Part shown: piece by piece, positions 36,136-39,192 of the stretch
Layout: every line of letters begins with the position of its first letter
Numbering within the stretch: position 1 is the first letter of the stretch
NCBI RefSeq assembly: GCF_001854225.1
Contig: NZ_CP015208.1
Coordinates: 1,054,001 to 1,118,000 of the forward strand
From: Candidatus Rhodoluna planktonica
GTDB taxonomy: Bacteria > Actinomycetota > Actinomycetes > Actinomycetales > Microbacteriaceae
Direction: 5' to 3'
DNA: 64,000 nt
The notes under the pieces: generated by a model
Told to the model about the DNA's origin: nothing
The model's database searches: none
Seen by the model: only the letters and a program-made list of their open reading frames with translations
Translations under genes and position numbers: made by a program

Positions 36136-37755
36136 ATGACCTTTGAGAACACCTTCACTCAGGCAATTCGCCTCAACCCAGATATCGCCACCACCGCGGG
36201 CAAACTGGCTGATTTCCACGAACGCTTTGAAGAGGCTGTTACCTCGGCCAGCGAGAAGGCGAAAGCGAAACAGCACGCAAAAGGAAAAAACACCGCTCGC
36301 GAGCGAATCGAAATGTTGCTAGATGCCGGCTCTTTTGTCGAAATTGATGAGTTTGTGCGACACCGCTCGACAGCGTTCGGGATGGATAAACATCGCCCCT
36401 ACGGAGATGCGGTGGTTACCGGAGTCGGAACGGTACAGGGGCGTCAGGTAGCCGTTTTCTCTCAGGACTTCACAGTTTTTGGTGGCTCACTCGGTGAAAC
36501 CGCTGGAAACAAGATCATCAAGATTATGGATTTGGCTTTGGCGACCGGAGTACCAATTATTGGAATCCTCGATTCCGGCGGCGCCCGCATCCAAGAGGGC
36601 GTTATTGCCCTTGGTAAATACGGCGAAATTTTTAAGCGCAACACAATGGCTTCGGGCGTTATCCCCCAAATTTCAATCATCATGGGCCCGGCTGCAGGCG
36701 GGGCCGTTTATTCGCCCGCGCTAACCGATTTTGTGATCATGGTGGATAAAACCTCAAACATGTTTGTCACCGGCCCAGATGTAATCAAGACCGTCACCGG
36801 CGAAGACGTTGGCATGGAAGAGCTGGGCGGGGCTCGGGCGCACAATGAGCGTTCGGGTGTTGCCCACTACCTAGCAGATGATGAGGCTGATGCAATCGAT
36901 TATGCGCGCGCGCTGTTGAGCTATCTTCCAGAGAACAACCTGTCTGAGACCGTGGTCTATGCGCCCGAGGGTGAACTTGAAATCACCGATGCCGATCAAA
37001 AATTGAACAGCATCATCCCAGATTCACCGAACCAGCCTTACGACATGCACGCGATTATCGAATCGCTAGTTGACTCGGGTGAGTTCCTTGAAGTGCAGCC
37101 GTTGTATGCCCCCAACATTTTGATCGGGTTTGCCCGAATTGATGGCCGCAGCGTAGGAATTATCGCGAATCAGCCACAGCAAATGGCTGGCACACTGAAC
37201 ATTGACGCCGGCGAAAAAGCCGCTCGTTTTGTTCGATTCTGCGATGCCTTCTCGATTCCAATTTTGACCTTGGTCGATGTTCCAGGCTACCTGCCGGGCA
37301 CTGATCAAGAGTGGGCCGGCGTGATTCGACGCGGTGCCAAACTTCTTTACGCTTACGCCGAAGCCACTGTGCCGCTGGTCACAGTAATCACCCGTAAGGC
37401 TTACGGTGGCGCCTACATCGTCATGGGTTCGAAGCAGCTTGGCGCAGACATCAACTTGGCATGGCCCACCGCAGAAATTGCAGTCATGGGCGGTCAAGGT
37501 GCAGTCAACATTCTGTTCCGCGACCAAATTAAGAAAGCCGAAGAAACCGGCATGGATGTAAACCAGGTTCGAGCCAAACTAGCCGCCGAGTACACCTACA
37601 ACGTTGCCTCTCCTTTCTTGGCAGCCGAGCGTGGCGAGCTCGACGGCATTATCGAACCGGCTGCCACTCGCATCCAGGTAATCAAAGCCCTTCGTGCCTT
37701 GCGCACGAAACGCTCAAACTTGCCACCCAAGAAACACGGGAACATTCCGCTGTAA
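36136..37755 (+). CDS. Acyl-CoA carboxylase beta subunit (AccD5-like)
   Basis: The 539-residue carboxyltransferase transfers carboxyl from biotin on AccA3 to acetyl- or propionyl-CoA. The sequence shows [61 protein letters not shown] (first acyl-CoA/biotin site), [21 protein letters not shown] and [17 protein letters not shown] at 36127 is in frame but overlaps the -10 box, so ATG 36136 is chosen. The stop overlaps accE by one base (TAATG). The neighbourhood (birA, AccE, Maf, AccA3) is the mycobacterial AccD5 block. Substrate preference (propionyl-CoA for AccD5) is inferred from that context. Confidence 0.93.
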
Positions 37756-37997
37756 TGGACAAGTCAGAATCTTCGCTTCGCGATAGCCTTCAAGTTGTTG
37801 CCGGGAATCCAACTCCGGAAGAACTGGCTGCAGCTATTGCCGTACTCGAGGCGGTAAAGGCCGAAGACGAAGCAAATGCCCTGGGTTATGAACGCCCGCT
37901 GAAATCAACTTGGTCTCGAAATAGCGGCATGTTTCGTGCCGAACTTGCCCTCGGTCCTGGCCAGTGGCGGGCAGCATCCAGGCGGGGTCTTAACTAA
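37755..37997 (+). CDS. Acyl-CoA carboxylase epsilon subunit
   Basis: This 80-residue protein is the small epsilon subunit (AccE5 type) that helps assemble AccA3 and AccD5. It shows the usual acidic start, NPTPEELAAAIAVLEAVKAEDE helix and a C-terminal WSRNSGMFRAELALGPGQWRAASRRG. The ATG shares a base with the accD stop codon. Confidence 0.88.
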   Translation: MDKSESSLRDSLQVVAGNPTPEELAAAIAVLEAVKAEDEANALGYERPLKSTWSRNSGMFRAELALGPGQWRAASRRGLN

Positions 37998-38006
37998 ATC
38001 TTTATC

Positions 38007-38032
38007 TTGTGTCCCCCGAAGAGGGGACACAA
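38007..38032. repeat. 10-bp inverted repeat after accE
   Basis: TTGTGTCCCC (38007-38016) pairs perfectly with GGGGACACAA (38023-38032) over a 6-nt loop. Lying 10 nt after the accE stop, it may end that transcript, although no T-run follows on either strand. Confidence 0.5.
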
Positions 38033-38061
38033 AACCGCTATCTAACAACCCCACTTCACGA

Positions 38062-38067
38062 GATACT
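38062..38067 (+). promoter_or_regulatory. Possible -10 box GATACT upstream of a structured region
   Basis: GATACT lies about 7 nt before the first paired base of the candidate small RNA. No convincing -35 is seen at 17 nt. Confidence 0.3.
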
Positions 38068-38073
38068 AAGAGG

Positions 38074-38171
38074 GAAGTTGAAGCGACAATCTAGGGGGAT
38101 TGCTTCAGCTAGGGGGAAAGTTGGGAAACCAACTTTAGGAAAACCGCTCGCAAGAGCGGTTTTCCTCATTT
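38074..38171 (+). ncRNA. Candidate small RNA with three stem-loops (unidentified)
   Basis: The region forms three successive helices. Helix 1: 38076-38083 with 38103-38110 (8 bp, one G-U), then a CGA bulge and 38087-38091 with 38098-38102, loop UAGGGG. Helix 2: AAAGTTGG/CCAACTTT (38117-38136), loop GAAA. Helix 3: GGAAAACCGCTC/GAGCGGTTTTCC (38138-38165), loop GCAA, followed by a T-rich tail. Two loops are GNRA tetraloops only on the plus strand, which favours that orientation. UAGGGGG occurs twice, once across the helix 1 loop and once between helices. I do not recognise an Rfam family. Not excluded: pure terminator structure for the flanking convergent genes. Confidence 0.45.
38138..38171. 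terminator. Intrinsic terminator (12-bp stem) before the sensor operon 3' end
   Basis: Perfect stem GGAAAACCGCTC/GAGCGGTTTTCC with a GCAA loop and TCATTT after it on the plus strand. On the minus strand it would also end transcripts of the operon whose last gene stops at 38200. It doubles as helix 3 of the candidate RNA. Confidence 0.75.
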
Positions 38172-38199
38172 AACGGCTGTTTCAATTCAGATTCGGCCG

Positions 38200-39192
38200 C
38201 TATTGGGCAGGCTCTCGGGTGCCAAGTTTGAGCCAAATGTCGGGCTCTGGTTCACCAGATCTTGTGGCCATTAGGGTCAGGCGCCACGCTTCGCCAGCCG
38301 GCGCGCGCAAAGTGATTCGCCCCTGTGAAACGGTGTCAATCTTTGCGGCTACTTGGGAAAGCAGGGCCACCCGTTCGCTATCTGTCAAATCTTCTAGGCC
38401 GCCCTCATCTAAAAGGGTCACCTCTACCCCACGCGTACGAGCGTCATTTACGGAGCGTCTGATCTCATCGGTGATTAGTGCCTCGCCGCGAATTTCATCA
38501 CGAAGGGCAGCCTCTAAGCGAACCGCCTGCTGTTTCAAACCATCATCGAGAAGGCCGCGGCTACTCACGATTCGGCTGAGTACCGGGCTTGCAGTTTCAA
38601 GGGCATGGTTGATTCTGCGCTCTCGCTCAGCTCTAGTGGCCGTAGTCTTTGCCGACTCAATCGCCAAGTTGACTGCGCGCTGATTGTATTCTTCGGTTTC
38701 GGCATTTAGGCGAGAAAGCCCGACATACATCAGCCAGCCTGCAGCCAAAAAAATCACAGCTCCAAAAATTCCGGTGCTGGCAATCGAGGCCAGCCCACCC
38801 CAGGCCACAACTTGGATAACCACCGAAGCGTTTCCGATCGCGGCAATCCACGGATGGCCACGCATCGCGGTAGCGCCGAGCATCGTAGCCATGGCACCAA
38901 CAAACCAGGTTCCATAGGTTCCAATTGAATCCTTCGGAAGGTTCGGCAACAGCAGCATCGGAATCAGCAATGCCGGGATGAGATTGAACAGTGCCTGGCT
39001 GACCGGTATTTGCCAGCTTCGGTACCCGGCAATAGTGGGCACCATCGTGGTTAGGTATAGAGCCAGGGATACCCAAAGATAATCACCGGTTTCCGGATGC
39101 TCATAAAAACTAAAAATAGCGAGAGCGACCGGGTAAAGCGCAAACAGCATGGCCCCCAGAGTGAGCAGCCAGCGAGGAAACCTAGTCTGCAT
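38200..39192 (-). CDS. Membrane protein resembling a degenerate histidine kinase
   Basis: The 330-residue protein begins with about five membrane helices (residues 7-155), then a charged coiled-coil (EYNQRAVNLAIESAKTTATRAERERRINHAL) leading into LETASPVLSRI, where a HisKA_3 kinase would have LHDxVxxxL; the phospho-acceptor His is replaced by Leu. The C-terminal part (ALRDEIRGEALITDEIRRSVNDARTRGVEVTLLDEGGL) has no clear N, G1 or G2 ATP-binding boxes. The start overlaps the kinase gene upstream by 11 bp, so it is made with it. It is probably a signal-receiving or modulating partner that cannot itself phosphorylate. Confidence 0.65.
   Translation of the reverse strand: MQTRFPRWLLTLGAMLFALYPVALAIFSFYEHPETGDYLWVSLALYLTTMVPTIAGYRSWQIPVSQALFNLIPALLIPMLLLPNLPKDSIGTYGTWFVGAMATMLGATAMRGHPWIAAIGNASVVIQVVAWGGLASIASTGIFGAVIFLAAGWLMYVGLSRLNAETEEYNQRAVNLAIESAKTTATRAERERRINHALETASPVLSRIVSSRGLLDDGLKQQAVRLEAALRDEIRGEALITDEIRRSVNDARTRGVEVTLLDEGGLEDLTDSERVALLSQVAAKIDTVSQGRITLRAPAGEAWRLTLMATRSGEPEPDIWLKLGTREPAQ

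Follow-up and report, generated by a model that had tools for sequence, protein, structure and literature searches.

Introduction

The sRNA 6C is widely conserved in Actinobacteria. According to a study of B11/6C, either of its C-rich loops represses an mRNA through a six-G tract, and such G-tracts are located at ribosome-binding sites (PMC10470900). A review reports a screen in which no chaperone for 6C was found, and the legend of one of its figures states that B11/6C raises its targets, which counts against the sponge reading below (PMC8628891). RosA of Bacillus subtilis is an sRNA with three G-rich regions, complementary to C-rich regions of sRNAs, that was shown to act as a sponge for the C-rich RoxS and FsrA (PMC8216469). 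In the open-licence literature that we searched, we found no account of how 6C gets switched off and no paper on a 6C sponge or on the RNA described below, which is a weak negative.

We analyzed 64,000 nt of Candidatus Rhodoluna planktonica (GCF_001854225.1, NZ_CP015208.1:1,054,001-1,118,000, forward strand), hereafter the window; its genome is labelled G000, and other G and L numbers denote genomes and loci of relatives. The stretch 3' of accE in the window is very likely a small regulatory RNA gene. Like RosA and RsaI of Staphylococcus, which are sRNAs with G-rich regions, the window RNA is predicted to be stand-alone and G-rich; its G-rich regions are exposed as far as the computed fold goes, and the likeness is one of the way of working, with binding by the window RNA predicted, and not one of sequence comparison. 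It differs from RosA in its length (∼95 versus ∼229 nt), its phylum and its proposed partner (6C versus RoxS and FsrA). It resembles 6C (B11, RF01066) in size, in its two hairpins with single-base runs in the loops and in its actinobacterial host. However, 6C displays C-runs in two hairpin loops and lies at acs and a cpaF/tadA-type gene, whereas the plus strand of the window RNA displays G-runs in loop 1 and the linker and lies at accE. The papers on B11/6C and RosA make a sponge a plausible reading of this locus.

Results

A structured RNA absent from Rfam lies 3' of accE

The predicted sRNA has accB (PF01039) and accE (PF13822) as upstream neighbours and follows accE directly on the same strand (Table 1). 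The convergent gene on its other side adjoins genes for a histidine-kinase-like protein and a LuxR-type response regulator.

Table 1. Features of the predicted sRNA locus (positions within the window)
Feature	Position	Strand	Basis or remark
accE, acyl-CoA carboxylase epsilon subunit, neighbour	37755-37997	+	PF13822, E 1.6e-14
Inverted repeat TTGTGTCCCC/GGGGACACAA	38007-38032		possible promoter element of predicted sRNA
-10 box GATACT	38062-38067	+	NATACT recurs in genus RNAs
Predicted sRNA, ~95 nt	38073-38167	+	model R1 match and fold; start inferred from -10 box
Hairpin 1, with G-motif 1 UAGGGGG (38092-38098) in loop	38076-38110	+	fold and model R1
Linker = G-motif 2 UAGGGGG	38110-38116	+	five G single-stranded in fold; unpaired probability 1.00
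Hairpin 2, 8 bp, GAAA loop	38117-38136	+	fold and model R1
Terminator hairpin, 13 bp, GCAA loop	38137-38166	+	fold, both strands examined
Convergent gene, 330 aa	38200-39192	-	Pfam: nothing at E 0.001

The original prediction had proposed an unrecognised small structured RNA, other than 6C or Ms1, and had suggested an Rfam search; this search (Rfam 15) supports it, as nothing in the whole 64 kb window reached a gathering score. When 37800-38400 was searched permissively, six weak scores were obtained, the best being RNAI (RF00106, 23.9 bits); this score and that of RAGATH-32 (RF02922, 17.3 bits) are based on the terminator and the adjoining hairpin and are far under the gathering scores of 47 and 41.8, respectively. 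The 6C model (RF01066) was not among the families listed for this region with E allowed up to 5. Neither Ms1 nor 6S was among the Rfam matches to the window or to this region, which bears on Ms1 only if Rfam holds a model of it. Permissive searches of loci of the wider family described below gave zero matches in 14 loci and, in 10 further loci, six matches, none of them at the RNA or near gathering score. As only sub-gathering scores were obtained in the window locus and in those of relatives, Rfam families were rejected as the identity of this RNA: the predicted sRNA and the accE-linked family are absent from Rfam.

Folding of the plus strand (38073-38172) yielded three consecutive helices after the GATACT box, as originally described, with a free energy of -47.5 kcal/mol compared to -24.4 (sd 2.95) for shuffled sequences (z -7.8, 0/200 as low), and the body without the terminator (38073-38136) folded with -23.8 kcal/mol (z -5.2, 0/200 shuffles). 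The inverted repeat, the GATACT box and both UAGGGGG copies lie where they had been reported, and hairpin 2 is as it had been drawn. Hairpin 1 exists, but the CGA bulge (8+5 bp) drawn in it is a CAA bulge in the RNAfold minimum, the two being alternative foldings; the GCAA loop of the terminator hairpin was recovered, on a stem longer than the 12 bp first given. Both G-runs had been called unpaired, which holds for the second and, with a computed unpaired probability of 0.62, in part only for the first. The minus strand folds as well (-38.6 kcal/mol, z -7.3), so that the strand is not set by folding alone; it was assigned from the promoter box and the motif order in relatives. Helix 3 is missing from the output of a terminator scan, presumably since the stem is followed by fewer than five T; the RNAs of relatives terminate in UCUUUUC or similar. 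The terminator stem is nearly self-complementary (87% identity to its own other strand), and the hairpin may therefore also terminate the convergent minus-strand genes.

RNAs of the same architecture occur in the genus

A plain DNA similarity search of 59 genomes, including the window's own, returned chance-level pieces besides the self-match (best E 0.0065, apparently coding), and the letters of helices 1 and 2 were unrecognisable in relatives by this search. We located the AccE protein in 43 of the 59 genomes (own included) and read the sequence 3' of accE. Part of the genus genomes carry there NATACT, a hairpin with an AGGGGA loop, UUGGGG, a second hairpin, UUGGGGA and a terminator, in letters that otherwise differ, and in many others another gene is found directly 3' of accE. 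In single-sequence folds, several members do not have the shared architecture as their minimum.

A covariance model (R1) was built from six genus RNAs excluding the window, in each of which 24-27 of the 27 pairs are formed. R1 matched 16 of 67 genus genomes, 14 of them within ∼2.2 kb of accB or accE; the exceptions are G068, without accB within 1.5 kb, and G002, with accE at a contig end. Under the strict filters of the genome search G000 was not matched; with the filters off, R1 aligned to the window at 38062-38165 of the plus strand (25.6 bits, E 2.6e-6), the top match in 16 kb (runner-up 0.032). Eight further members were added by place and architecture (G000, G013, G018, G003, G061, G066, G083 and G063; G003 and G063 are the least certain), giving 24 members seen in 67 same-genus genomes, a count that is no proof of absence elsewhere, many of the remaining genomes being incomplete drafts.

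Most of the genus RNAs that we read have G-runs in loop 1, in the linker and also 3' of hairpin 2 (G-motif 3); the last is absent in G000. Apart from the G-runs, the loop letters vary widely. The GNRA loops emphasised in the original prediction are no conserved feature among relatives; the G-runs are conserved instead. Conservation of helices 1 and 2, on which the prediction had been made to depend, is supported for the architecture (the R1 match and the family covariation below).

The RNA belongs to an accE-linked family of Microbacteriaceae

When R1 was run on 299 genomes at E up to 0.1, nine genomes gave weak matches, three of them in the genus and two in the terminator only; those outside the genus include L132 and L135, again 3' of accE. 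With AccB of L135 as the query in a scan of contigs, the best 80 of 533 loci were kept. In these 80, R1 gave 13 matches at E up to 1 (best 3.3e-4), and a UUCGGGU-hairpin pattern marked 62, which is no count of RNAs since L157, L169 and L220 are chance matches in coding DNA. Upstream of the pattern, CTAGGGTA was present in 40 of the 62 and GGGGG in 48.

Of 44 family RNAs that were prepared, 33 were aligned; eight were dropped for lack of a clear 5' anchor, and so were three further Agromyces RNAs, which have a shorter hairpin. In the 33 RNAs, loop 1 CUAGGGUA and loop 2 AUUCGGGUU are invariant, partly by selection because the RNAs were picked by such motifs. Loop 1 variants are UCGGGUAA in Agromyces and CAGGGUAGAC in Microbacterium types. 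RNAalifold predicted 31 pairs, 21 of them changed on both sides; 98.0% of the alignment cells were paired (88.3 in shuffled alignments) and the covariation was 0.379 (0.186 shuffled), with 0/500 shuffles as high for each. Structures slid along the alignment had 32-45% of cells paired, a comparison that favours the original structure as it was derived from the same alignment. All four body helices contain compensatory changes, and the linker UUGG of the family pairs in hairpin 1, with some compensation.

A covariance model of the 33-sequence family alignment (R3) did not find the window (a 4.0-bit overlap at 38116-38205 only), so that the window is connected to the family through its place, the order of the parts and intermediate genus members. 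We equated hairpin 1 of the window with the CUAGGGUA loop of the family-wide RNA by order only. Among 396 genomes of the order, R3 found 15, all but one (L280 of G759, see below) in the same family; as it scored only nine candidates per genome, absence elsewhere means little. Judged by these comparisons, the window RNA is a local, fast-evolving relative of an accE-linked sRNA of many Microbacteriaceae, and the predicted gene and its family are well supported. Genus and family RNAs have G-runs in common, which for the most part fall in loops or linkers.

A -10 box and an upstream element accompany the RNA

NATACT stands at the -10 position in 19/19 genus RNAs compared (the 16 R1 matches, G000, G013 and G018), a count that is partly due to selection since the box belongs to R1 and to the search pattern; in G003 the box deviates (CATAGAT). 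No -35 element was recognised, and a sigma-70 scan listed nothing at the window locus. In 7 of 9 genus loci examined, a TGTCCCC-type motif begins 52 nt (51 in G017) ahead of the -10 box; G013 and G018 have the variant TATCCCC, spotted by eye. In 21 of 33 loci of the wider family, a simple pattern locates GTCCCCC-like motifs that begin 54-56 nt ahead of the aligned RNA start; in eight others it apparently caught a distal repeat (65-66 nt), in one it gave 33 nt, and in three it missed the motif. In L153-L232 the GTCCCCC motifs (also TGTACCCC) upstream of the RNA are often in tandem, ∼11 nt apart, and look like regulator sites. Repeats with a spacing of ∼11 nt are reminiscent of OmpR-type response regulators. 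The 38007-38032 repeat possibly belongs to the sRNA promoter instead of being an accE terminator only; its near-fixed spacing to the -10 box weakens the latter assignment.

Exposed G-runs and 6C as a candidate partner

In 20 genus RNAs the mean unpaired probability was 0.66 for bases in runs of at least four G and 0.24 for other G; for the family (33 RNAs) the values were 0.98 for the GGG of the two loops and 0.19 for other G. Mostly paired G-motifs are motif 2 of G017 (0.09) and G068 (0.10) and motif 3 of G013 (0.18).

The genus 6C, which sits between acs and a cpaF/tadA-type ATPase gene, is detected weakly by RF01066 and never above the cut-off there. In G000 it was reached through the acs locus (G000:C1:267674-267734, L152). 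A genus 6C model (R2) found 6C in 15 of 20 chosen genomes; when it was applied to 36 named family genomes, 33 gave a 6C, and all 33 were read. In the genus the search took in 20 genomes carrying the window-type RNA (G061, G063, G066 and G083 are outside it), and 6C was read in 16 of them. It was not found in the drafts G007, G028, G031 and G062 (73-85% completeness); acs is missing too in G007 and G031 and is cut by a contig end in G028. In the 6C of G000 the loop 1 C-run has been lost and CUUCCCCCAG is retained in loop 2; in G019 the loop 1 run is lost as well, and in G003 it reads CCACCC. The 6C of G000 scored 39 bits with R2 compared to 58-90 for the other listed genus members; of 11 Rfam 6C matches, that of G019 scores lowest. 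In two genomes R1 weakly matched the antisense strand of 6C, which shows complementarity and no membership.

The RNA is co-adapted with 6C in the genus

We computed RNAduplex energies of the G-run RNAs with 6C for 16 genus genomes and centred them by row and column, ignoring the cost of opening the RNAs. The cognate residual was -4.47 kcal/mol, with p 0.0001 in 20000 label permutations, which ignore relatedness; with 11 representatives p was 0.0001 for the full-length RNAs, and 0.0034 when only loops were paired with G-windows. In controls that permute the 6C columns alike in all genomes and thereby keep the phylogeny, 0/87 reached -4.47 (mean -0.25, sd 0.85, lowest -3.07), and reversed 6C gave -0.04. 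The mean cognate energy was -62.9, compared to -46.0 (sd 2.0, lowest -53.6) in the controls and -50.1 with reversed 6C. The residuals of G000 were -6.2 and -4.9; positive residuals occurred in G068 at full length and in G006, G009, G013 and G067 for loops. Raw cognate ranks are unimpressive (the own 6C of G000 is 18th of 19 partners), as some 6C variants are better partners for all RNAs, an effect that centring removed. The computation shows sequence co-adaptation with 6C in the genus, where the RNA has apparently become adapted to pairing with 6C and possibly to sequestering it.

Compared to its own shuffles, none of 200 was as good in G006, G010, G029, G009, G017, G059, G068 and G067; G013 (4/200), G002 (4/200) and G005 (7/200) were intermediate; and G000, G019, G003, G018 and G069 were not distinct (14-28/200). 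Specific complementarity to the own 6C is therefore found for the genus as a set, while the window RNA taken alone is only slightly above chance (z -1.3, 19/200 as good) and G019, G003, G018 and G069 have z -1.0 to -1.6. The G019 RNA pairs better with reversed 6C (-44.9) than with 6C (-41.2). Perfect complements to the own 6C extend over 15 nt in G010, 14 nt in G017 and 13 nt in G059; in 13 of 16 genus genomes the longest plain complementarity is 6-9 nt, which alone is no proof of pairing (mean 8.6 versus 6.6 for reversed 6C). In G000, GGGAAGUU at the inferred 5' end perfectly complements AACUUCCC at the remaining C-loop of 6C.

In G000, G019 and G003 the C-run of 6C loop 1 is broken or missing and G-motif 3 is lacking as well (3/3), and both elements are present in 13/13 others. 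This count is biased because most of the 13 were found by or used for R1, which was built from motif-bearing RNAs (all but G013 and G018 are R1 matches and five built R1); G019, without G-motif 3, was nonetheless matched by R1. In a phylogeny based on AccB and Acs (with AccB unavailable for two genomes and partial for several) G019 groups with the G006 group (support 86), G000 adjoins (47) and G003 is basal, which gives two or three co-loss events. The unadjusted exact test gives 1 in 560, and given the biased sampling, the two node supports and the basal G003 we regard the co-loss count as weak.

In the wider family, the first 16 of 19 pairs showed no excess pairing (cognate mean -53.3, residual +0.75; 61 controls -55.8, sd 2.6), nor was there any in G195 (185/200 shuffles as good), G174 and G144.

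Discussion

A proposed sponge for 6C and its alternatives

We propose that the locus is a stand-alone sRNA gene with a -10 box, an upstream element and an intrinsic terminator, and that in this genus its product is most likely a 6C sponge, a reading that we hold with about even confidence. The RNA, two hairpins followed by a terminator hairpin, would be transcribed from its own -10 box; in the cell, pairing would begin between its G-runs and the C-run loops of 6C and could then extend as a duplex into the stems, and 6C would thereby be kept from the G-rich ribosome-binding sites under its control. We infer this mechanism by analogy with RosA, with 6C as the C-rich partner. More tentatively, the RNA may be the first candidate natural 6C sponge, as far as the literature searched goes; the two RNAs may co-evolve, a change or loss of a 6C C-loop being matched by a change or loss of a G-motif; and the sponge may descend from an older sRNA of the whole family that displayed GGG at three sites and had a dedicated regulator at tandem GTCCCCC motifs about one helical turn apart.

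Alternatively, the RNA could be a trans-acting sRNA whose G-runs bind C-rich sites in mRNAs, with 6C pairing as a side effect of G-runs meeting C-runs. The family keeps its G-runs despite the lack of excess 6C pairing, its two loops are letter-perfect beyond what C-run pairing needs (in RNAs picked by motif), and CTAGGGTA recurs upstream of the pattern. However, part of the genus pairs far past the runs (the perfect complements in three genomes) in a way that tracks the own 6C, and we consider this explanation possible but unlikely. Somewhat less probable still is a protein-binding decoy, in which GGG-displaying loops titrate an RNA-binding regulator: letters past the G-run are kept in the loops of the aligned family and there are up to three display sites, as in regulator-titrating RNAs, but in the genus these letters change widely and the fit to 6C follows the genome.

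It is improbable that the region is a structured 3' end of the accE transcript or a terminator stack with no RNA function of its own. The location between convergent genes would suit it, as would a last hairpin able to terminate in both directions; on the other hand, the -10 box and the upstream element recur at a near-fixed distance, all body helices of the family have changed in a compensatory manner, and five genomes (G005, G007, G028, G062 and G069) carry the RNA, with its own box, ∼1.8-2.1 kb beyond accE or accB. A small protein gene was rejected as most improbable, since the 54-codon GTG frame that overlaps the stretch (38009-38173) begins upstream of the promoter box, and relatives keep the helices by compensatory changes while their lengths vary.

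A 6C sponge in this genus, with an sRNA visibly adapted to its own 6C, would offer a direct test case for 6C control.

The RNA outside the genus

Outside the genus the RNA may serve another purpose, and the conserved loop letters hint at another partner. A covarying sRNA that is not in Rfam, 3' of accE in many Microbacteriaceae genera, is a useful annotation, which covers cultured strains (such as Leifsonia, Labedella or Cryobacterium) where a knock-out is possible.

Six Microbacterium-type loci (L208, L210, L218, L219, L223 and L228) keep the UUUUCGGGUA hairpin and have no GGGGG linker. In L208, L210, L218 and L228 at least one 6C loop is without AA behind the C-run, and no 6C was found for L219 and L223. 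A link between the loss of the linker and the change in the 6C loop is only suggestive, given four counterexamples: L154 kept the linker although one 6C loop changed, and in L160, L189 and L195 both 6C C-loops are intact and the linker G-run is broken or missing, which speaks against a simple 6C-pairing role of the linker. Two further loci resemble the RNA. L304 (G101), from a small genome of another genus, has, ∼350 nt 3' of accB, what may be a reduced form of the RNA, comprising two GGGG runs and a terminator. L280 (G759), from another family and with no accE seen beside it, carries a similar CGACUAGGGUGGGCAGGCG hairpin followed by a G-run linker (E 1.5e-4).
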